In this document: positions 6,681 to 59,150 of the stretch, piece by piece
Layout of the letters: the number at the start of each line of letters is the position of its first letter
Numbering within the stretch: position 1 is the first letter of the stretch
Origin: Anadara kagoshimensis
Taxonomy: Eukaryota; Mollusca; Bivalvia; Arcoida; Arcidae
Assembly (NCBI GenBank): GCA_021292105.1
Contig: CM037866.1
Coordinates: 7,597,163 to 7,661,162 of the forward strand
Length of the DNA stretch: 64,000 nt
Reading direction: 5' to 3'
The notes under the pieces: model-generated
Seen by the model: only the letters and a program-made list of their open reading frames with translations
What the model was told of the DNA's origin: nothing
Database searches by the model: none
Made by a program: the position numbers and the translations under genes

Positions 6681-6704
6681 ACGATCAGTTCCTGGTATAA
6701 TGGT

Positions 6705-7046
6705 AACCACTGCAGTAGCTCAGTTGGAAGAGTGCTCGCTCCGTAAGTGGGAGGTCGAGGGTTCGAGCCCCGACCGGGTCTGACCAAAGACTTGAAAGTG
6801 GGTAGTGACTTTTCTTTCACCAACCAATCGGTATTACAAAATGAAACAGTCACGGTTCTTTCGGATGGGAACTTGAAATAAACGAGGTCCCGTGTCACGG
6901 TAGGCGTGGCACGATAAAGAACCCTGCTGTATAATGCCATCAGCGCTACGCACAGGCAAAATTTCTGTACCTTCACCTATAGCTGGCGACGTCTCGATAT
7001 AAGTGAAATATTCTTGACTTGGACGTTAAGCACCATTACTCAACTC
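6705..7046 (+). mobile_element. Full-length SINE-2
   Basis: The head AACCACTGCAGTAGCTCAGT gives an RNA polymerase III A box, and GGTTCGAGCCCCGACC gives the B box. The body carries CGGTTCTTTCGGATGGGAAC and GCTGGCGACGTCTCGATATA. The tail is CACCATTACTCAACTC. It separates the two halves of the surrounding direct duplication. Tails of this form suggest mobilisation by a partner LINE, but the partner is not visible. Confidence 0.85.
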
Positions 7047-7057
7047 ATCGCCTTGTA

Positions 7058-9196: not shown

Positions 9197-10320
9197 TTGA
9201 AATACCAATTTGAAAAATTGAGTTCAATCGGGGTTAGTTTTTATTATTTAGTTTTATAATTCGTTATTCTTTTTTTCAGGAATTAGAATATATGTGTTTG
9301 TCGAAGACCATTTTGAAGGTACTTGAAACAAATATATGGGCAACGTATAAAACAGATTGTAACACTAGCATAAAATAAGGCGATCAGTCTCAGACATTAT
9401 GAAAAAATCCCGTGGTGTGGTTAAATTAATATTTGGTCATTTGAAATACTACTTAAAATGGATGCAATTGGGTTGTTTTTTTATTATTTGATTTTATAAT
9501 TTGTTCTTCTTTTTCAACGAATATATGTGTTTGTCGAAGACGATTTTAAAGCCACTTGAAACAAATGTATGGGCAACTTTAAAAAACAAATTATAAAACT
9601 TGCACGAAATAAGTCGGTCAACAGCTCAGGCATTACGAATAAAAAGAAAGTAAGGCGGTGTGGTTAAAATAAAATATTTTGTCATTTAGTTATTTATATA
9701 TAATTATTACCAAAACTCTTTTAGTTTGCAGTTTGAGTAATCTTACTTAATTAAATCAATTTCTAAAGCAAAAATTGACATGTCTCGATGTTCAGATGGT
9801 ATATGTTTTGAAATACTACTTTGAAAAATTGGGTGCAATTGTGGTGTGTGTTTTAATTATCATTTATGTTTTTATAACTCCCCGCTTAAAAAGTGGGGGG
9901 GGGGGTATAGTGATAGGGGTTTCCGTCCTCCCGTTACACCTTAGGGTACCTATCTCTTATCCGCAACTCCTAAACCCTTCAATGGATTTTCATGAAACTT
10001 TCACACAATCTTTGTGATATAATGTAGATGTGCACCTCCTATTTAAAATTTTGATCCGATGGATTTTTTTATGTGGGGGGAGCGGGGGTATTTGTTGTGA
10101 GCTTGTGGCTCACAGTTTTTCTAGTTTTTAATTCTTTTTTAGCGAATATATGTGTTTGTCGAAGATCTTTTTGAAGCTTCTTGAAACAAATATAGGGGTA
10201 ATGTAAAAGAACATTATTAAGCTCTCACGAAACAAGTTGGTCATCAGTCACAGACATAATGAAAAAGAAAGTCTGGCGGCGTAGTTAAAACAATCAAATG
10301 CTTAATCATGGGTACAAGAC
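9197..10320 (+). repeat. Three diverged tandem units
   Basis: Units start near 9197, 9438 and 9806 at TTTGAAATAC(C/T)A. Each continues through TTTTATAATT(C/T)GTT, GAATATATGTGTTTGTCGAA and CTTGAAACAAATATATGGG-like words and a CAGTC(T/A)CAGACATTATGAA-like word. The third unit is interrupted by the Helitron-like element at 9878-10124. Confidence 0.8.
9878..10124 (+). mobile_element. Small non-autonomous Helitron-like element
   Basis: Comparison with the two uninterrupted tandem units (TTTTATAA directly followed by TTTGTTCTTC or TTCGTTATTC) shows a 247-bp insertion between A and T with no target duplication. The 3' end has a hairpin with 7-bp stem TGTGAGC/GCTCACA (10096-10114), then GTTTTT and CTAG, followed by T. 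Known Helitrons end in a hairpin plus CTRR and insert at A/T. The 5' end begins CTCCCC rather than the usual TC, so assignment is probable, not certain. It contains an 11-G run at 9895-9905. Confidence 0.6.
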
Positions 10321-18637: not shown

Positions 18638-19005
18638 GATTAGTTTATTCACTATGTCATATACCATTTTTGAATTTAATCATAAAATACATTCAAAAAT
18701 GGTATTTTTGAATGTATTTTATGATTAAATTCAAAAATGGTATATGACAACTATATCGGGTAATTGAATAGCCTTTTGTGTACCTGGAAAGATCATACCA
18801 AAACTCAGTTCTGTGTGACAGAACATGATTGAAAGATGACGCAAGAACTCGGCGGTAGTTAACTATAGTCAGTCCCACTAGTATTTGGTAAGACAAAACA
18901 ATGTGTGCCATCCCTTTTTTGGGTGTGTGTGTTTGTGTACACAATAACCCGATAATAAATTTGGACATTTCCCGGGATAGGCAATGCCTATTTTCATATT
19001 AGTTA
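18638..19005 (-). repeat. Repeat-G copy 1, carrying a MITE-4 palindrome
   Basis: Apart from the 95-bp insertion it matches 62010-62250 in reverse orientation. Shared words include AACTCAGTTCTGTGTGACAG, ATTTGGACATTTCCCGGGAT and AGGCAATGCCTATTTTCATA. Function unknown; ends show no inverted repeats. Confidence 0.8.
18655..18749. mobile_element. MITE-4, perfect 95-bp palindrome
   Basis: Two 46-bp arms (18655-18700 and 18704-18749) are exact reverse complements around a 3-base centre GGT. It looks like two MITE-4 units fused head to head. ACTA flanks it on both sides (18651-18654 and 18750-18753). The Repeat-G paralogue at about 62230-62250 lacks the palindrome and has one ACTA, which confirms insertion with a 4-bp duplication. 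Confidence 0.9.

Positions 19006-20405: not shown

Positions 20406-20438
<33 letters not shown>
20406..20438 (+). repeat. (CT)n microsatellite
   Basis: Uninterrupted dinucleotide array immediately before the SINE-2 head at 20444. Confidence 0.95.
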
Positions 20439-20440
<2 letters not shown>

Positions 20441-20443
20441 GAA

Positions 20444-20787
20444 AACCACTGCGGTAGCTCAGTTGGTAGAGTGTTCGCTCCGTAAGTGGGAGGTCGTGGG
20501 TTCAAACCCCGGCCGGGTCTGACCTAAGACTTGAAAGTGGGTAGTAACTGTTCTTTCGCCAAGCACTTGGCATTACGAAATAAAAGTCACGTTTCTTTCG
20601 GATGGGAACTTAAAATAAACGAGGTCCCGTGTCACGGTGGGCTTGGCACGCTAAGGAATCCTGCTGTATAATGCCATCAGCGCAACGCACAGGCAAAATT
20701 TCTGCACCTTCGCCTCAAGCTGACGACGTCTCGATATAAGTGAAATATTCTTCAATGGGACGTTTAACACCATTACTCAACTCTCTT
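20444..20787 (+). mobile_element. Full-length SINE-2
   Basis: The head AACCACTGCGGTAGCTCAGT and B box GGTTCAAACCCCGGCC are intact. The body is collinear with the copies at 6705 and 21844. The tail is ATTACTCAACTCTCTTTCTC, so the 3' end merges with a CT-rich tail. Confidence 0.9.
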
Positions 20788-20861
20788 TCTCCTAAAAACA
20801 GTCAACCTAACAACAGAACTAGTGTTGGGTACGCCAAAAAATGAAGCTTGATTGATAACAT

Positions 20862-21788: not shown

Positions 21789-21841
<53 letters not shown>
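21789..21841 (+). repeat. (CT)n microsatellite
   Basis: About 26 CT units ending three bases before the SINE-2 head at 21844. Confidence 0.95.
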
Positions 21842-21843
<2 letters not shown>

Positions 21844-21845
<2 letters not shown>

Positions 21846-22178
21846 CCACTGCGGTAGCTCAGTTGGTAGAGTGCTCGCTCCGTAAGTTGGAGGTCGTGGG
21901 TTCGAACCCCGGTCGTATCTGACCCAAGACTTAAAAGTGGGTAGTGACTTTTCTTTCGCCAAGCACTCGGCATTACGAAATTAAAGTCACGGTTCTTTCG
22001 GATGGGAACTTAAATAAATAAGAGGTCCCATGTCTTGGTAGGCTTGGCACGATAAAGAACCATGTTGTATAATGCCATCAGCGCAACGCACAGGCAAAAT
22101 TTCTGCACCTTCGCCTATAGCTGGCGACGTCTCGATATAAATGAAATATTCTTGACTGGGACGGTAAACACAATTACT
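21844..22178 (+). mobile_element. Full-length SINE-2 between two (CT)n arrays
   Basis: Complete head (AACCACTGCGGTAGCTCAGT), B box GGTTCGAACCCCGGTC, and full body. The tail ATTACTCTCTCT continues directly into (CT)n. CT arrays on both sides suggest insertion into a CT tract or growth of the tail. Confidence 0.9.
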
Positions 22179-22201
22179 CTCTCTCTCTCTCTCTCTCTCT
22201 C
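22177..22201 (+). repeat. (CT)n tail of SINE-2
   Basis: Short CT array contiguous with the SINE tail. Confidence 0.9.
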
Positions 22202-22239
22202 TGTAAAAGAGAGGAGAGACCTTACTACACATTGCCCGA

Positions 22240-22345: not shown

Positions 22346-22459
22346 AACATTTGGAGTTTTTACTAACAAAGCGAAAAAAGCGCATGGCATATCTTCCCCT
22401 CCTAAATGGTCAGCCCTATACAAGTTTAGCTGTCATGATAATGTTAACATGACAAAAAG

Positions 22460-22749
22460 TTGAGTTGAGTAATAGTGTTTCACGTCCCAGTGAAGAATAT
22501 TTCACTTATATCGAGACGTCGCCAGCTATATGCTAAAGTGCAGGAATGTTGCCGTGCGTTGCGCTGATGGCATTATACAGCAGGGTTCATTAGAGTGTCA
22601 ACCCCACCGTGACACGGAACCTCGTTTATTTTAAGTTCCCATCCGAAAAAAAACGTGACTTTCATTCGTAATGCCGAGTGTTTGGCGAAAGAACAGGCAC
22701 TACCTACTTTCAAGTCTTGGATCAGACCCGGCCAGGTTTAGAACCCTAG
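22460..22749 (-). mobile_element. SINE-2 copy, head truncated
   Basis: Minus-strand tail GAGTTGAGTAATAGTGTTTC, and body through CAAGTCTTGGATCAGACCCG. It stops inside the B-box region (CAGGTTTAGAACCC), so the tRNA-like 5' half is missing. Confidence 0.85.
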
Positions 22750-24934: not shown

Positions 24935-26910
24935 TTTTTCTTTACATCAAAATGATCATTGCATCAATATCTACAACATTCTAATATACATGCCTATACA
25001 AAACTTTTATAGTTTTCAAGATAATTAACCATTTCAGTATTGTTTTCGCATCTGTGACCTTGACCTTTGAACCCATGACCTTTTTCTATACGTCAAAATG
25101 ATCATTGTATCAATACCTACAACATTCTAATATACATGCCTATACAAAAAGTTTATAGTTTTCGAGATAATTAACCATTTCGGTATTGATTCGCATCTGT
25201 GACCTTGACCTTTGAACCCATGACCTTTTTCTATACATCAAAATGATTGTTGTATCAATACCTACAACATTCTAATATACATGCCTATACAAAAAGTTTA
25301 TAGTTTTCGAGATAATTAACCATTTCGGTATTGTCTCGCATCTGTGACCTTGACCTTTGAACCCATGACCTTTTTCTATACATCAAAATGATCGTTGTAT
25401 CAATACCTACAACATTCTAATATACATGCCTATACAAAAAGTTTATAGTTTTCGAGATAATTAAACATTTCCGTATTGTTTCGCATCTGTGACCTTGACC
25501 TTTGAACCCATGACCTCTTTCTGTACATCAAAATGATCGTTGTATCAATACCTACAGCATTCTAATATACATGCCTATACAAAAAGTTTATAGTTTTCGA
25601 GATAATTAAACATTTCAGTATTGTTTCGCATCTGTGACCTTGACCTTTGAACCCATGACCTTTTTCTATATATCAAAATGATCGTTGTATCAATACCTAC
25701 AACATTCTAATATACATGCCTATACAAAAAGTTTATAGTTTTCGAGATAATTAACCATTTCGGTATTGTCTCGCATCTGTGACCTTGACCTTTGAACCCA
25801 TGACCTTTTTCTATACATCAAAATGATCGTTGTATCAATACCTACAACATTCTAATATACATGCCTATACAAAAAGTTTATAGTTTTCGAGATAATTAAA
25901 CATTTCCGTATTGTTTCGCATCTGTGACCTTGACCTTTGAACCCATGACCTCTTTCTGTACATCAAAATGATCGTTGTATCAATACCTACAGCATTCTAA
26001 TATACATGCCTATACAAAAAGTTTATAGTTTTCGAGATAATTAACATTTCCGTATTGTTTCGCATCTGTGACCTTGACCTTTGAACCCATGACCTTTTTC
26101 TATATATCAAAATGATCGTTGTATCAATACCTACAGCATTCTAATATACATGCCTATACAAAAAGTTTATAGTTTTCGAGATAATTAACCATTTCGGTAT
26201 TTTCTCGCATCTGTGACCTTGACCTTTGAACCCATGACCTTTTTCTATACATCAAAATGATCGTTGTATCAATACCTACAACATTCTAATATACATGCCT
26301 ATACAAAAAGTTTATAGTTTTCGAGATAATTAAACATTTCCGTATTGTTTCGCATCTGTGACCTTGACCTTTGAACCCATGACCTCTTTCTGTACATCAA
26401 AATGATCGTTGTATCAATACCTACAGCATTCTAATATACATGCCTATACAAAAAGTTTATAGTTTTCGAGATAATTAAACATTTCCGTATTGTTTCGCAT
26501 CTGTGACCTTGACCTTTGAACCCATGACCTCTTTCTGTACATCAAATGATCGTTGTATCAATACCTACAGCATTCTAATATACATGCCTATACAAAAAGT
26601 TTATAGTTTTCGAGATAATTAAACATTTCCGTATTGTTTCGCATCTGTGACCTTGACCTTTGAACCCATGACCTTTTTCTATATATCAAAATGATCGTTG
26701 TATCAATACCTACAACATTCTAATATACATGCCTATACAAAAAGTTTATAGTTTTTCGAGATAAGTAACCATTTTGGTATTGTATTACATCTGTGACCTT
26801 GACCTTTGAACCCATGACCTTTTTCTATACACCAAAATGATTGTTGTATCAATACCTACAACATTCTAATATACATGCCTATACAAAAGTTTATAGTTTT
26901 CGAGATAATA
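24935..26910 (+). repeat. 145-bp tandem array, 13 units
   Basis: The invariant box TGACCTTGACCTTTGAACCC starts at 25055, 25200, 25345, 25490, 25635, 25780, 25925, 26069, 26214, 26359, 26504, 26648 and 26794. The period is therefore 144-146 bp. Each unit also has TATCAATACCTACA(A/G)CATTC and AGTTTATAGTTTTCGAGATA. Diagnostic variants recur every third unit, indicating a three-unit higher-order repeat. Confidence 0.95.
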
Positions 26911-28889: not shown

Positions 28890-29735
28890 GCGAAAATAAA
28901 GATAATTAAACAGAGATAAATAAACAAACAAATGGTACAGTTCAATGAAAATAAAGACAACTGAAGATGGATAAATATACAAACAAATGTTACAGTTCAA
29001 TGAAAATAAAGACAACTGAAGATGGATAAATAAAAAACAAATGGTACAGTTCAATGAAAATAAAGACAACTGAAGATGGATAAATATACAAACAAATGGT
29101 ACAGTTCAATGAAAATAAAGACAACTGAAGATGGATAATATACAAACAAATGGTACAGTTCAATGAAAATAAAGACAACTGAAGATGGATAAATATAAAA
29201 ACAAATGGTACAGTTCAATGAAATAAAGACAACTGAAGATGGATAAATATAGAAACAAATGGTACAGTTCAATGAAAATAAAGACAATTGAATATGGATA
29301 AATATACAAACAAATGATAGAGTTAAATGAAAATAAAGACAACTGAAGATGGATAAATATACAAACAAATGGTACAGTTCAATGAAAATAAAGACAACTG
29401 AAGATGGATAAATATACAAACAAATGGTACAATTCAATGAAAATAAAGACAACTGAAGATGGATAAATATACAAACAAATGGTACAGTTAAATGAAAATA
29501 AAGACAACTGAAGATGGATAAATATACAAACAAATGGTACAGTTAAATGAAAATAAAGACAACTGAAGATGGATAAATAAACAAACAAATGGTACAGTTC
29601 AATGAAAAAAAAGACAACTGAAGATGGATAAATATACAAACAAATGGTACAGTTTAATGCAAATAAAGGCAATTGAAGATGGATAAATATACAAGCAAAT
29701 GACACAATTTAATAAAAGAACAAAATAGACAATCA
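28890..29735. repeat. 55-bp minisatellite, about 15 units
   Basis: The unit contains TACAGTTCAATGAAAATAAA, GACAACTGAAGATGGATAAA and TATACAAACAAATGG. Units differ by a few bases or single-base deletions. One further unit lies beyond a MITE at 29946-30020, so the array continued before that insertion. All minus-strand reading frames of the unit lack stops, which explains the long minus-strand frames here (for example 29051-29533). Confidence 0.95.
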
Positions 29736-36517: not shown

Positions 36518-37055
36518 CCATGTAAGTTGTGCCATGAACATTACACAGTTTGAAAGGTAACGCGGCTTGCATATACATGTATACTAATTTCACTTATATT
36601 GAGACGTCACCAGTTAATGTTTAAGAAATCATAAAAACAATAATGATACTTATTTTGCAAAGTTACAATGTTGGTTGAAACATTTGTTTGTCCATTAAAG
36701 TTTATGTATACACTGTACATTGCAGAGAAACCCCGAATTGATCGAGTAAAAATACTTTACGTTTTTTTATATCGAAGAGGCCAGATCTAGGATAACGGAG
36801 AAAACCCAGAGTATTCTTTTCCCGGTCTCTTATCTACATTTTTATTCTCGATATCGGATTGAAAACGCGTCGAATTGTTAGGGACCGTGACCGACTGATT
36901 AACGTGCATTTCAAAAGAATACCTATTTGTTTTCAAGTATCTGGTCAAACCAACCCAGTCATGGTTCAGACGACATTATACTAATTTCTCTACAACCTGA
37001 GTTATTGTAGGATATGACAATAGAAAAGCAACAAATATTATTAAATTGCAAGAGT

Positions 37056-37313
37056 TTAGTTTAGTAATGGTGTTTAACGTCCCAGTCGAGAATATCTCAC
37101 TTATATTGAGACGTCACCAGCTATAAGCAAAGGTGCAGAAATTTTGCCTGTGTGTTGCGCTGATTGCATTATACAGCAGGGTTCTTTATCATGTCAAGCC
37201 TACCATGCATGGCACAAGACCTCGATTATTTTAAGTTCTCATCCGAAAGAACCGTGACTTTTATTTCGTAATGTCAAGTGCTTGGCGAAAGAACAGTCAC
37301 TACCCACTTTCAC
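37056..37313 (-). mobile_element. SINE-2 copy, head missing
   Basis: Minus-strand tail TTTAGTAATGGTGTTTAACG through GTCACTACCCACTTTCA. It breaks before the tRNA-like head. Confidence 0.85.
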
Positions 37314-39106: not shown

Positions 39107-39258
39107 GAATTAATCACTACTTGTAGTGCCAGATAAGGAAATCTCAACCCTCGTTCTAATATATTTCGTCCAGAACTCGTCAAGCCTTGTTCTGGACCAA
39201 ATATATTAGAACTCGGGTCGAGATTTCCCTATCTGGCACCACAAGTTGTGATAGATTC
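39107..39258. repeat. 152-bp foldback hairpin
   Basis: Arms of about 72 bp (39107-39178 and 39187-39258) are reverse complements with roughly 11 mismatches by eye and a short loop. Paired words include GTGCCAGATA/TATCTGGCAC, GGAAATCTC/GAGATTTCC and TTCTAATATATTT/AAATATATTAGAA. It could be a foldback MITE or a source of a long hairpin RNA. No flanking duplication is clear. Confidence 0.85.
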
Positions 39259-42002: not shown

Positions 42003-42545
42003 AAAATGTAACAAGAACGGTCTCTTGTGAGCCAAATACCCCCCGACCCAACATCTACAAGGGTGTAATGTATCCAGTAACATTGACCTTTCCCATATAA
42101 CCTTGGTTTAAGGCCATAGCATACGTTTAGGCCATGAATATTATTCATGTGAAGTTTTATAACCGAAGCAATTATGAGATATTGCCCGGACACGCGTTTA
42201 CACGGACAGACAGACATACAGAGTTGAGTTGATTAATGGTGTTTAACGTCCCAGTCAAGATTTTTTTTTTACTTATATCGAGACGTCGCCAGCTAAAGGA
42301 GAAAGTGCAGAATTTTTGTCCTGTGCGTTGCGCTTATGGCATTATACAGCAAGGTTCTTTAGCGTGACAAGCCCAATGTGAAACAGGACTTCGTTTATCT
42401 TAAGTTCCCACCCGAAAAAACCGTGACTTTCATTTCGTAATGCCGAGTACTTGGTGAAAGAACAGTCACTACCCACTTTCAAATCTTGGGTCAGATCCGG
42501 CCGGGGATGGACATACAGACAGACATAGTGATTCATATATACTAG
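42003..42545 (-). mobile_element. Helitron-like fragment interrupted by SINE-2
   Basis: AACAAGAACGGTCTCTTGTG, with GAGCCAAATACCCCCCGACC, is similar to the antisense of the hairpin end of the element at 9878 (GTGAGCCACAAGCTCACA then CAAATACCCCCGCTCC). It continues to (GACA)n-rich sequence. The SINE-2 at 42223 splits the GACATACAGA tract. Boundaries uncertain. Confidence 0.4.
42223..42509 (-). mobile_element. SINE-2 copy with 10-bp target duplication
   Basis: Minus-strand tail to the B-box edge (GGATCTGACCCAAGATTTGA); the tRNA-like head is truncated. GACATACAGA flanks it at 42213-42222 and 42510-42519. The site is in GACA-rich sequence, so part of the match could be pre-existing repetition. 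Confidence 0.8.
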
Positions 42546-46845: not shown

Positions 46846-46979
46846 CTTTCATCTTAAAACTAATGTCAAGATTTTAGTCTGACATCCTACAAAAAACCTA
46901 AGGTATACTCCGTCATGCAAAAACATTCATTAGCTTAATTTGATTAAATATATTTTGGTCCTAAGGCAATTTGGTAAAG

Positions 46980-47023
46980 GCACTAATGATAAAGAATTGT
47001 ATTCCGAAACGGCCGTCTAGTGC
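46980..47023 (+). ncRNA. Decayed hammerhead ribozyme
   Basis: Stem I GCACTA/TAGTGC is intact. The conserved CTGATGA is changed to ATGATAA (46986-46992). Stem II is AGAAT-TGT-ATTCC with one lost pair. GAAA, the palindromic CGGCCG and the GTC cleavage triplet remain. Two core changes predict loss of self-cleavage. Confidence 0.65.
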
Positions 47024-47332
47024 TGTGATACAAACACCGATTTAATATGTCATTCACAGTAACTCAGTATCATCTCAAACGCTTCTATATTTATGACATT
47101 CATTTCACAAATTTTAATGTCAATGTTAAACAACGATTCAGTCATTGAAATCCGTTAAATTTACTATAATTGTCTAAATTTCCTGCAAATTAAAATTTGA
47201 AATTTCTCAAAAACTAAGGTATACTCCCTCATGCAAAGTATTTCCTTAGCTTAATTTGGTTAAATATATTTTGGTCCTTTGGGTAGCTTTTCAACATCTT
47301 CAAAATAATTTTGGTTTCATAATTTTGGTCCA

Positions 47333-47378
47333 AGCACTACTGATGAGGAATTGTATTCCGAAACGGCCGTCTAGTGCT
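47333..47378 (+). ncRNA. Type I hammerhead ribozyme, intact core
   Basis: In order: stem I 5' strand AGCACTA (47333-47339); core CTGATGA (47340-47346); stem II GGAAT-TGT-ATTCC (47347-47359); core GAAA (47360-47363); minimal stem III CGGCCG (47364-47369); TC, with cleavage expected after C47371 (GTC); stem I 3' strand TAGTGCT (47372-47378). All stems pair perfectly and every conserved core base is present. The very short self-complementary stem III is typical of animal hammerheads in retrozymes and Penelope-like elements, which are thought to work as dimers. The RNA would be read from the plus strand. Confidence 0.75.
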
Positions 47379-47514
47379 GTAAAATTAAAACTGGTATAAT
47401 ATGTAAAATAATTACAAAAGAGCAAAAATGCCATAAAATGAAATAAACTAATTGCACCAATAAAAAATAGACCTACATACAAACGACAGACAAAATGTCA
47501 TAAAAACAACAAAT

Positions 47515-48480
47515 TACAACAGTCAATAAAGAAAAACAGATCATATGGCAAACATCAGGAAAGCATTTCTACTAATCGTAAAATAAACAAGAGAAGGTCT
47601 GCCGACGATACATTTAGCATGTCGGATTTCTGAAAAAAAATTAAAAACAAAACTAGATAAATGGTATTTAGTTCATGACAGCCCTTTTTCTGCATTCCAA
47701 AATAAATTTCTATGAGGTATATATCATAAAATGGCTTCTGTTGAAAAATCTAAAATGTCGGATTATTTTTATTGATGCAATAAATGGTTACAGCTCCTGA
47801 CACTTACGTTCTTTATGTCGGGGGCTGAAGAAAATTTCTTACTTGACGAGCTTGTCGAAAGGTAAGCATTTTTGGAGTTTGGAATGAATTATGACTTGTT
47901 TATGTCTAAACATGTTATGTCATGGCTCGCTAAGTCAGAGCTTAGATGACGGAACATCATAGTTCGTTTAAAAAGGAACATCAAATCTATTTAAAATGTA
48001 ATTATATTGTTATTATATTTTTTATCATAGCATGTCATTGTCGAAGAGTAGGCCTATTTTCCAATACACCAATTAACACCCGCCTGATTTTTCAAGATGA
48101 AACCAGGATCGACAAGTCAAATCGCTATAATCATTTGTACCTTGTTAACTTAGGAGATAAAAGCGTATAAATTATTTCTGTGTTAAATTAACTTTCAATC
48201 AATTTTTATTACATTTTCCATTCTCGTGGTATTTAGAAATTCTTTGGTTTGACAGATTTTTCGAAATTGGATTGACTTTAAAGCATTTTTATTTTCTGTT
48301 GCACATAACTTTAGTTAGATAAAACAGAAGTCTGTGACAATCAACCCGACATTTTCATTTTGAACATTTTCTAATTCATCTTTCCGTTTTCTGTGTTAGA
48401 ACTCATTGAGTATATTGGTGTGTAATCTTGGTCAATTATTTTGAAATAAGATGATTGTGAATCTGCAATTTAAATTTAGC
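47515..48480 (+). repeat. Repeat-S, long copy
   Basis: Contains in order CAACAGTCAATAAAGAAAAA, GAAGGTCTGCCGACGATA, TAGTTCATGACAGCCC, GACACTTACGTTC, GGAATGAATTATGACTTG, CGCTAAGTCAGAGC, CTTGTTAACTTAGGAGATAA and GAAATTGGATTGACTTTAAA. Other copies keep the same order. It directly follows the ribozyme repeat. Confidence 0.8.
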
Positions 48481-49854: not shown

Positions 49855-50019
49855 ATGTACTATTTAAGGAATCCATGTTTTGACTTGAGATGAAAATAAC
49901 TTAAAATTACTTCATCAGAAATTAAGAATATCATCCAAAAGGCGGTAATATTTGCGACACACTTTACACACATTTTCAATTTAACTGTTACGAACAAAAA
50001 TACTATAAAATAAACAAAC

Positions 50020-50980
50020 TAATCGTAACAGTCAATAAAGAAAAACATACCGTGTGGAAAATATCGGGAAAACATTTCTAATAATCGTAAAAATAAACAA
50101 AAGAAGGTCTGCTGATGATAAATTTTGCATGTCGGATTTCTGAAAAAAATTAAAACAAAAATAGATAAATGGTTTTTAGTTCATTATCGCCTTTTTTCTG
50201 CATTCCAAAATAAATTCCTGTAAGTCATATATCATAAAATGGATTTTGTTGACAAATCTATAATTTTTAAGAAAAATATAATGCAATAAATGGCTTTAGC
50301 TCGTGACTCTTATGTCGGGAGGCTGGAGAAAGAATGTCTAAGTTGACGAACTTTACATATTTCAAATAAAAATTGGTAAGAATTGTGATGATAGATTGCT
50401 GATGATTTTTACATTCCTTTTCTCTTCAGAACAAAAGTCGTAATTTAAGATTTTGGAATGAATTATGATTTGCTAATGTCCAAACATTATAACTCAGTAC
50501 ATGACTCGCTTAATCAGACCTTCTTTAACTACAAAAAATTCTGCTCGTTTTTTTTTTTTGCCCATTTAAAGTGCAATTATATTTTTATCACCATCGCATG
50601 GAATTGTCTTAGAGTAGACCTTCTTAAAATGTTGTACTTGTTTTCAAATATCTATTTTAATTGGAATTATATTTTATCATTACAACATGGCATTGTCGAT
50701 CCCAATCAAGATTCTTTCATTTCTTGATCAGTACATGGATGTGGAGGGATACTTTTCTCGAATTAATATTTTTATTATATAAACCTATTGGTTAGAAAAA
50801 TATCCTCAAAATAATTTTGACATTTTATTTGCAATCTTAATTAAGCTTTGATTTTCAGATTTAAAACACGTATTTCTTTCAATGACAACGTTAAAAATAT
50901 TTAAACATTTCTTCACCTGAATATGAATTGACCACATTTGACCTACAAACCAAAAATGGATGTTGGAAACATGGTGGTTA
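50020..50980 (+). repeat. Repeat-S, third long copy
   Basis: Starts at CTAATCGTAACAGTCAATAA and keeps GAAGGTCTGCTGATGATAAA, TTTTCTGCATTCCAAAATAA and AATGAATTATGATTTGC. A SINE-3 word (CCCAATCAAGATTCTTTC) is inserted near 50700. Confidence 0.75.
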
Positions 50981-52894: not shown

Positions 52895-53210
52895 AGTGAG
52901 TGAGTAATGGTGTTTTACGTCCCTGTCAAGAATATTTCACTTGTATCGTGACGTCGCCAGCTATAGACACAGGTGCAGGAATTTTGCCTGTGCGTTGCGC
53001 TGGTTGGCATTATACAGCAAGGATCTTTATCGTGCCACGCCTACTGTTCCCATCCGTAAGAACCATGACTTTCATTTCGTAATAACGAGTGCTTGGTTAA
53101 GGAACAGATACTACCCACTTTTATGTGTTGGGTCAGACCCGGTCGGTTTTGAACCCACGGCCTCCCGCTTACGGAGCAAGCACTCTACAGACTTAGCTAC
53201 CGCAGTGGTC
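52895..53210 (-). mobile_element. SINE-2, near full length
   Basis: Minus-strand tail (AGTGAGTGAGTGAGTAATGG, giving a (CACT)n-type tail) through a head with CACTGCGGTAGCTAAG. About 30 bp of the body around the GGGACCTCG region are missing. Confidence 0.85.
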
Positions 53211-56043: not shown

Positions 56044-56413
56044 AGAAATGAGTTGGGTGTTTTTGTTTAAAATACTATGTTTTAAAAAATAGCCAAAGGT
56101 CAAGGTAAGATTAGGATGAAATGTTTTCAATATTAAGAAATTGTCACGAGAAACACATTTTCTAAAGATGAAATTTTAAGCTAAAATAAGATGGCAACTA
56201 AAATACCAAAACATAATGCAATTCCCAAATAAATCGACCCGGGGATGTTATCTTAGTAATAGGAATATATGATAAAAAATGATAATTCAAAACCAGTTTA
56301 TTTTGCGAAAGTTTGTCGTTACTATTCGACGATGGTAGCCTCTCAAAGCACTAAGTTTTTCTTTAATCTGCTAAGTTAACTAGGTGCAAATGATAATGGA
56401 GTTTTGACAAATT

Positions 56414-56935
56414 TTTGCTAGATTTCGCACATGTAATCATTTTCTTCTAATTGAAAAGGGAAGATGGGCAAATGTTGAAAGGAGCTACAGAACATGTAGT
56501 CTATGTAATCTATGTAATCTAAACAGAATTGGTGATGAGTATCATTTTTTATTGGAATGTAGCTTTTTTGAAAATAATAGAAAAAAATATATAAAGAAAA
56601 AATATTATATCAGACAAAATATTCTAAAATTACAAATGTTAATAACTAGTACAAATAAAGTTGAACTGTTAAATTTATGCAAATTTCTAAAAGAGGGTTT
56701 AAAATATTATACTTAAATATCAATTTTATTTCTTTTTTCCTGTTTATAACATGTATCTATTGATATCTATCATACTGAGTAATTATTGTAAATCGTTTTA
56801 ATATATATTTTGTTGTAATATAATTTTGTTATATGTGTACCGCCATTGTATATAGATATATATTGTATAGTTTAACCTCTAATACCACCTCCGTGGTACA
56901 GAGTGTAATAAAGAATCTTGAATCTTGAATCTTGG
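56414..56935 (+). pseudogene. LINE 3' end, C-terminal zinc-knuckle-like region and tail
   Basis: An open frame with no stop from 56414 to TAA at 56714-56716 encodes FARFRTCNHFLLIEKGRW, then RTCSLCNLC, then IGDEYHFLLECSFFENNRKK. This arrangement (KFRxSxHxLxIExGR, CxxC, IGDExHFLLxC) is the C-terminal region of CR1/L2-like non-LTR retrotransposon ORF2 proteins. It is 5'-truncated. An AATAAAG signal and the tail repeat (AATCTTG)n at 56913-56934 follow. The intact frame suggests fairly recent insertion. Confidence 0.75.
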
Positions 56936-57929: not shown

Positions 57930-58250
57930 ACAAGTATAATTACATTTTAAATACATATGATGATACTTCTCAAATGGTAAAACCAGATGGTTGTCATCTA
58001 AAAATTCTGATTTAGCGAGTCATGTAATGAGTTAACATGTTCAGACATTAACAAGTCATAATTCATTTCAAAATCTTAAATTACGACCTTTGTTCTGAAG
58101 AGAAATAGTAGCAGAGGTTCTATCATCAAAAACCTTAATTTTTGTTCGAAATATGTAAAACTCGTCAACTCAAGAATTCTTTCTTCGACCTTTCCACATA
58201 GGGAATGTTAGTGTCACGAGCTAACACCATTTATTTCTTTGTGGATTTTA
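57930..58250 (-). repeat. Repeat-S middle part, reversed
   Basis: Antisense words TTAGCGAGTCATGTAATGAG, TTAACAAGTCATAATTCATT, TTACGACCTTTGTTCTGAAG and AAAACTCGTCAACTCAAG match the copies at 47515 and 54600. Confidence 0.8.
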
Positions 58251-58254
58251 AAAT

Positions 58255-59150
58255 TAAAAACCAACATGCTAGATTTGTCAACAGCAGAGACCCTTTTCTG
58301 TTATTTATAGCTTGTAAAATTTTTTGGAATTCAGACTGAAAGACATGAACTAAAATTCATTTGCCACTTTCATTTTTTTTTTAAAAGTCTGACTTATTAA
58401 ATTTCTCATCGGCAGACATTCTCTTGTGTATTTTCACGGTTATTAGCCAGTTTTCTTTATGTCTGTTATTCTTTTTTGACGGTTGCAATTATATTTAAGG
58501 TCTTTTTATGATCGTCTTATGACAGTTTTTTTAATCTTTCCGTGACACTAAATTTGATGTATAAAATATGGGTCAAACGTATAGCTATAGAGGCCTTTAA
58601 TATGGGCCCTAAAAAAACAACATGCTAGATTTGTCAACAGCAGGCCTTTCTTCTGTTATTTATAGTTTGTAGGAATTTTTTGGAATTCAGATTGAAAGGC
58701 AGTTATGAACTAAACATCATTTACCAGTATCTCCTTCGTTTTTTCTAAAAATTCTGAAATGCTAAATTTGTCATCGGCAGACCTCTTGTTTATTTTCACG
58801 GTTAATAGCAAGTTATCCTTATGTTTGTGCAAATGTCTGTTATTCTTTACAATTTTTTGTGATCATCTTATGACAGTATTTTGAATCTTCCCATGACACT
58901 AAATTTGATGTATAAAATATGGGTCAAACGTATTGCTATAGAGGCCTTTGATATGGGCCCCAAAAAAACCAACATGCTAGATTTGTCAACAACAGGCCTT
59001 TCTTCTTTTATTTATAGCTTGTAGGATTTTTTTGGAATTCAGATTGAAAGGCAGTTATGAACTAAAAATCATTTCTTCAAAATTTTGACATGCTAAATTT
59101 GTCATCAGCAGACCTTCTCTTGTTTATTTTTAAGGTTGATAGCCAAAAGT
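58255..59150. repeat. Tandem triplication of about 355 bp
   Basis: CAACATGCTAGATTTGTCAA occurs at about 58262, 58619 and 58972. Each unit contains TTTTTGGAATTCAGA(C/T)TGAA, TAAATTT(G/C)TCATC(G/A)GCAGAC and TTAT(G/T)ACAGT. The first two also share GGGTCAAACGTATAGCTATA-like and AGGCCTTTRATATGGGCCC-like words. The first part is related in antisense to the left part of Repeat-S (GTTCATGACAGCCC). Confidence 0.85.

Follow-up and report, generated by a model that had tools for sequence, protein, structure and literature searches.

A decayed retrozyme-like element with one complete and one broken type I hammerhead motif in the bivalve Anadara kagoshimensis

Retrozymes have previously been described in mussels, corals, and salamanders, with published animal retrozymes consisting of short head-to-tail repeats of low guanine plus cytosine (GC) content that carry type I hammerhead ribozymes (PMC7229834). 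Those of the mussel Mytilus galloprovincialis are described as AT-rich repeats of 350–390 bp in which the motif is present in ~5000 copies and cleaves at ~0.1 per min, with circles being abundant (PMC7229834). In the same account, the mussel hammerhead is without most of the archetypal loop contacts, and invertebrate helix III consists of two pairs capped by a tetraloop (PMC7229834). Here we describe a 512-bp retrozyme-like element on the forward (+) strand of a 64,000-nucleotide stretch of the A. kagoshimensis genome (assembly GCA_021292105.1, contig CM037866.1, positions 7,597,163 to 7,661,162), hereafter the window, in whose positions all coordinates are given. The element carries a complete type I hammerhead motif at 47333–47378, together with a broken copy of the motif further upstream.

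Compared by published description, the locus resembles the M. galloprovincialis retrozymes in its repeat length (354 bp here, against 350–390 bp), its low GC content, and its type I hammerhead (PMC7229834), however it differs from them in being a diverged partial dimer with one ribozyme that is very probably dead. As in the invertebrate retrozymes described in that source, helix III is formed here by two pairs under a tetraloop (PMC7229834). The satellite or retrozyme hammerheads of newt and axolotl are alike in having a short stem III with a palindromic loop able to form a dimeric hammerhead, and their units of 330–350 bp are close to the 354 bp seen here. In contrast, helix III of one axolotl class is a single pair where two pairs are present here, and helix II of the other class contains a U-U mismatch that is absent from the A. 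kagoshimensis motif.

The hammerhead motif at 47333–47378

All of the conserved core nucleotides and the three stems of a type I hammerhead are present at 47333–47378 (+), confirming that the motif is real. Read directly, the segments are AGCACTA (47333–47339), CTGATGA (47340–47346), GGAAT (47347–47351), TGT (47352–47354), ATTCC (47355–47359), GAAA (47360–47363), CGGCCG (47364–47369), TC (47370–47371), and TAGTGCT (47372–47378), bearing out the original prediction of an intact-looking type I hammerhead with every conserved element in order, including a 5-bp stem II with a TGT loop. The core residues C3–A9, G12–A14, A15.1–U16.1, and H17 all lie within 47340–47371, in hammerhead numbering, with C3 and G8 described as essential residues (PMC11167929). 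The stems measure 7 bp (I), 5 bp (II), and 2 bp (III), with the open end at stem I. Stem III comprises an A-U and a C-G pair closed by GGCC within the palindrome ACGGCCGU, and lengthens to 8 bp in the dimer form. The predicted cut after C47371 agrees with the position given by the hammerhead model, as had been proposed, and the 3' ribozyme could still cut read-through transcripts at this site today.

The Rfam model RF00163 (Hammerhead_1) aligns with 47334–47377 over its full length (model positions 1–45 of 45), scoring 28.1 bits with an E value of 9.1e-5 in a scan of 601 bases, which by our own scaling becomes ~0.01 for 64 kb. This falls short of the gathering score, which is 34. A scan of the whole window at the gathering score lists nothing, and a whole-window scan at E≤1 does not list a hammerhead at 47333–47378, the filters being tighter for such longer input than in the 601-base scan. 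By the covariance-model check named in the original prediction, the match is therefore significant locally without being a hit at the gathering level.

A descriptor combining the core with stems of at least 5, 4, and 2 bp, drawn up post hoc with the motif already seen, returns 47333–47378 as the sole site on both strands of the window. In first-order random sequence with the dinucleotide frequencies of the window, 0.0043 sites per window are expected by chance with stems of 5, 4, and 2 bp (100 events in 2.96 Gb), and 0.00017 with stems of 7, 5, and 2 bp (only four events in 2.96 Gb). The loose core pattern alone is not rare, with two occurrences observed in the window against 1.19 expected. 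The folding energy of the 46-mer is likewise unremarkable (z −1.63 relative to shuffled sequences, of which 16 in 200 fold equally well), and its predicted minimum fold is not the hammerhead, at −12.3 kcal/mol compared with −7.8 kcal/mol for the hammerhead.

Repeat architecture and the broken 5' copy

Self-alignment places the motif in a partial dimer of the form A-B-A' (46893–47404, +), the 512 bp of which correspond to ~1.45 units of 354 bp and hence to less than two full units. Module A, the 5' copy (46893–47050, +), aligns with module A', the 3' copy (47209–47404, +), in 158 columns, 24 of them mismatched (84.8% identity), with a further 38 gap positions in two gaps. Module B (47051–47208, +) occurs once, showing only weak local alignments and no blastn match to the sequence that flanks A on its left or A' on its right. 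Comparison of the window by blastn gives no further copy of the element beyond A and A', and none of the 60 stop-to-stop open reading frames (ORFs) listed for the window with a minimum length of 80 aa falls within 46893–47404. The two hammerhead copies, and with them their cleavage sites, are spaced 354 positions apart, delimiting a unit of 354 nt (47018–47371, +) as the putative circular RNA. The GC content of this unit is 0.308, and the element lies in an AT-rich window.

The 5' hammerhead copy (46979–47024, +) is broken in its core, reading ATGATAA where the 3' copy has CTGATGA. Its changes are C3 to A (46986), G8 to A (46991), and G10.1 to A (46993), with the first pair of stem II also lost. 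Its substrate half (47009–47024, +) is intact, being identical to 47363–47378, with a potential cut after C47017. The identical run between the copies extends over 33 nt, and reveals no significant constraint on the substrate half (permutation 0.063). In a Penelope hammerhead, C3G and G8C are each described as abolishing cleavage (PMC11167929), whereas the substitutions in the 5' copy are C3A and G8A. As C3 and G8, each needed in the Penelope hammerhead, have both been replaced, the 5' copy is very probably dead. The conserved core suggests that these changes are losses upstream rather than gains downstream. The locus would thus be a diverged relic, in which two ordinary monomeric cuts should not release the 354-nt unit, since the partner ribozyme carries C3A, G8A, and a broken stem II pair. 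This damage at 46979–47024 was missing from the original prediction, the interpretation of which is partly supported.

With regard to the tertiary contacts between loops 1 and 2 of type I hammerheads, a possible outer extension of stem I spans 47320–47387 (+), where TAATTTT (47320–47326) is predicted in a 91-nt fold to pair with AAAATTA (47381–47387) over an internal loop, with a probability of 0.82–0.93. The broken 5' copy has at most 4 bp at the equivalent position. The best outer-stem run is 8 bp, a length reached in 2.9% of 5000 flanks taken at random from the window and in 10.9% of 5000 shuffles of the motif's own flanks. The outer helix is therefore suggestive, a lead that is not significant against chance.

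Origin of the element

We consider it probable that the element derives from a metazoan non-long-terminal-repeat (non-LTR) retrozyme that inserted long ago and has since decayed, on account of its 354-bp unit size, low GC content, non-coding sequence, and short stem III with a palindromic loop. Such retrozymes are built of head-to-tail repeats of ~150–450 bp that each contain a type I hammerhead, a trait represented here by two modules 354 bp apart, one with its ribozyme broken, and the element also shares the traits of a GC content below 50% and the absence of coding sequence. A circle was probably the template for the partial dimer that inserted, after which the modules would have diverged by ~15% and the core of the 5' ribozyme would have been lost. 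The motif, the repeat architecture, and the damage are seen at the locus itself, while for cleavage, circularisation, reverse transcription, and insertion we draw on published work on other species.

Several observations weigh against this reading. In addition to the sub-gathering Rfam score, only two modules are present, the ribozyme of one being broken, and the candidate target-site duplication, the 7-mer TACAAAA at 46888 and 47413, is not significant, since among 3000 pairs of stretches drawn at random 13.5% share a word of at least 7. Retrozyme circles have been described as highly self-paired, which is a tendency rather than a strict criterion and is assessed here on a relic. The stability predicted for the 354-nt circle does not exceed that of its dinucleotide shuffles (z 0.1, with 105 of 200 as stable), 83 of 100 stretches of 354 nt from the window are at least as stable as the circle, and the hammerhead stems rarely form in it (probabilities of 0.00–0.03, with 0.01 for stem I and 0.02–0.03 for stem II).

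The original prediction linked such ribozymes to both retrozymes and Penelope-like elements, and whilst the repeat of 354 bp, the low GC content, and the lack of coding sequence support the former link, the latter is weaker. The alternative that the locus is a fragment of a Penelope-like element, with A and A' as pieces of pseudo-LTRs and a coding part that was lost or never here, is unlikely. Penelope-like elements also carry type I hammerheads in tandem arrangement, however they are coding elements, and their hammerheads are described as minimal and usually without helix III (PMC7761336, PMC6155905), compared with the 2 bp and palindromic tetraloop found here. Furthermore, the modules lie just 158 bp apart, with no ORF of at least 80 aa between them. 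Penelope-like elements are marked by a coding region for a reverse transcriptase with a GIY-YIG domain. Among the 18 of the 60 window ORFs that were compared with Pfam, no family exceeds its curated cut-off, with Frizzled matched below threshold (E 0.09).

Less probable again is the remnant of a satellite-like tandem array, in which the repeat would spread at the DNA level through unequal crossing-over, with no RNA stage involved. The two modules are indeed arranged head to tail, and newt satellite DNA is given as the place where animal hammerheads were first known (PMC6155905), but the ~1.45 units of the element (512/354 bp) form no array, and a tandem repeat search of the window lists none at 46893–47404. 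A resemblance to the hammerhead by chance is scarcely credible, for although the Rfam score, the absence from the whole-window scans, and the unremarkable folding energy would be compatible with it, only 0.0002 to 0.004 such sites are expected per window, in line with the claim of the original prediction that chance occurrence is very unlikely, the repeated module holds a second copy of the motif in register, and a core with three stems (thresholds of 4, 3, and 2 bp) was found in one locus (L141) among the 177 loci listed from loose core-pattern scans.

Those scans matched the looser core patterns to 57 stretches in genome_contigs and at least 120 in viral_contigs, with none of the 177 listed loci matching the element by blastn (E≤0.1), and the motif-specific pattern gave 0 matches in viral_contigs. 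The hammerhead-like core and three stems of L141, the only such case among the 177 listed loci at these loose thresholds, lie at ~base 10226 of that locus. Phages and plasmids gave no match.

The window is rich in repeats and poor in genes, which together with the type of the motif makes an animal origin plausible, and it contains several further repeats. An interspersed family is found at 47492–47853, 49997–50353, 58158–58490, and 58620–58849, with the other copies 68–79% identical to the first, which starts 87 bp past the element and is unrelated to the ribozyme module by blastn. A dispersed family of ~250–390 bp occurs on both strands (20406–20791, 21805–22207, 6704–7047, 22455–22746, 37050–37312, 42215–42506, and 52897–53209), with one copy containing a sub-threshold transfer RNA (tRNA) match at 20452–20515 (28.0 bits against 29); ARAGORN reports 0 tRNAs. 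The sub-threshold match suggests that this family is a tRNA-derived short interspersed nuclear element. Hairpin-like stretches at 39122–39243 and 18653–18751 match microRNA families on both strands below the gathering score, and are probably transposon remnants rather than microRNAs. Tandem arrays lie at 24935–26909 (145-bp unit, 13.6 copies, 95% matches) and 28892–29701 (55-bp unit, 14.8 copies, 94% matches). A reading frame of 102 aa at 56408–56716, which we take to resemble the end of a retroelement protein, has three relatives at 41–60% identity in a protein search and no Pfam match.

A possible role of one catalytic strand at two sites

Although the 354-nt unit should not be released by two ordinary monomeric cuts, the live catalytic strand (47333–47370) might cut both its own site and the intact site of the dead copy, releasing the unit, a possibility that we regard as doubtful. 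Cutting across the copies would rely on 8 bp in the palindromic stem III and 7 bp in stem I, and dimeric cleavage is described as documented for newt and viroid hammerheads (PMC6155905). When the 38-nt live catalytic half is cofolded with the 16-nt substrate half of the dead copy, the predicted structure is an exact hammerhead of 7, 5, and 8 bp at −24.3 kcal/mol. Cofolding with the dead catalytic half yields nearly the same fold at −20.9 kcal/mol, and as the two halves behave alike, these energies are uninformative on chemistry.

In transcripts of three different lengths, the cross-copy fold exceeds the predicted minimum by 3.0 to 3.8 kcal/mol and the monomeric hammerhead fold exceeds it by 6.1 to 12.1 kcal/mol, with the monomeric fold 4.5 kcal/mol above the minimum in a 91-nt transcript that excludes the other copy. 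In a transcript of 541 nt, the predicted pairing probabilities are 0.69–0.80 for the dimer stem III, 0.00 for the cross-copy stem I, and 0.07–0.10 for stem I of the live copy. These modelled probabilities speak against ready assembly of either the monomeric or the cross-copy form at equilibrium.

If cutting across the copies does occur, one working ribozyme would suffice for the locus to release its 354-nt unit. The pair of broken and intact copies offers a simple test, provided by nature, of whether a unit can be processed at both of its ends by a single ribozyme strand. The locus also presents a case of a convincing motif that scores under the Rfam gathering threshold for type I hammerheads. 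The element probably adds one decayed copy to the animal retrozymes already known.
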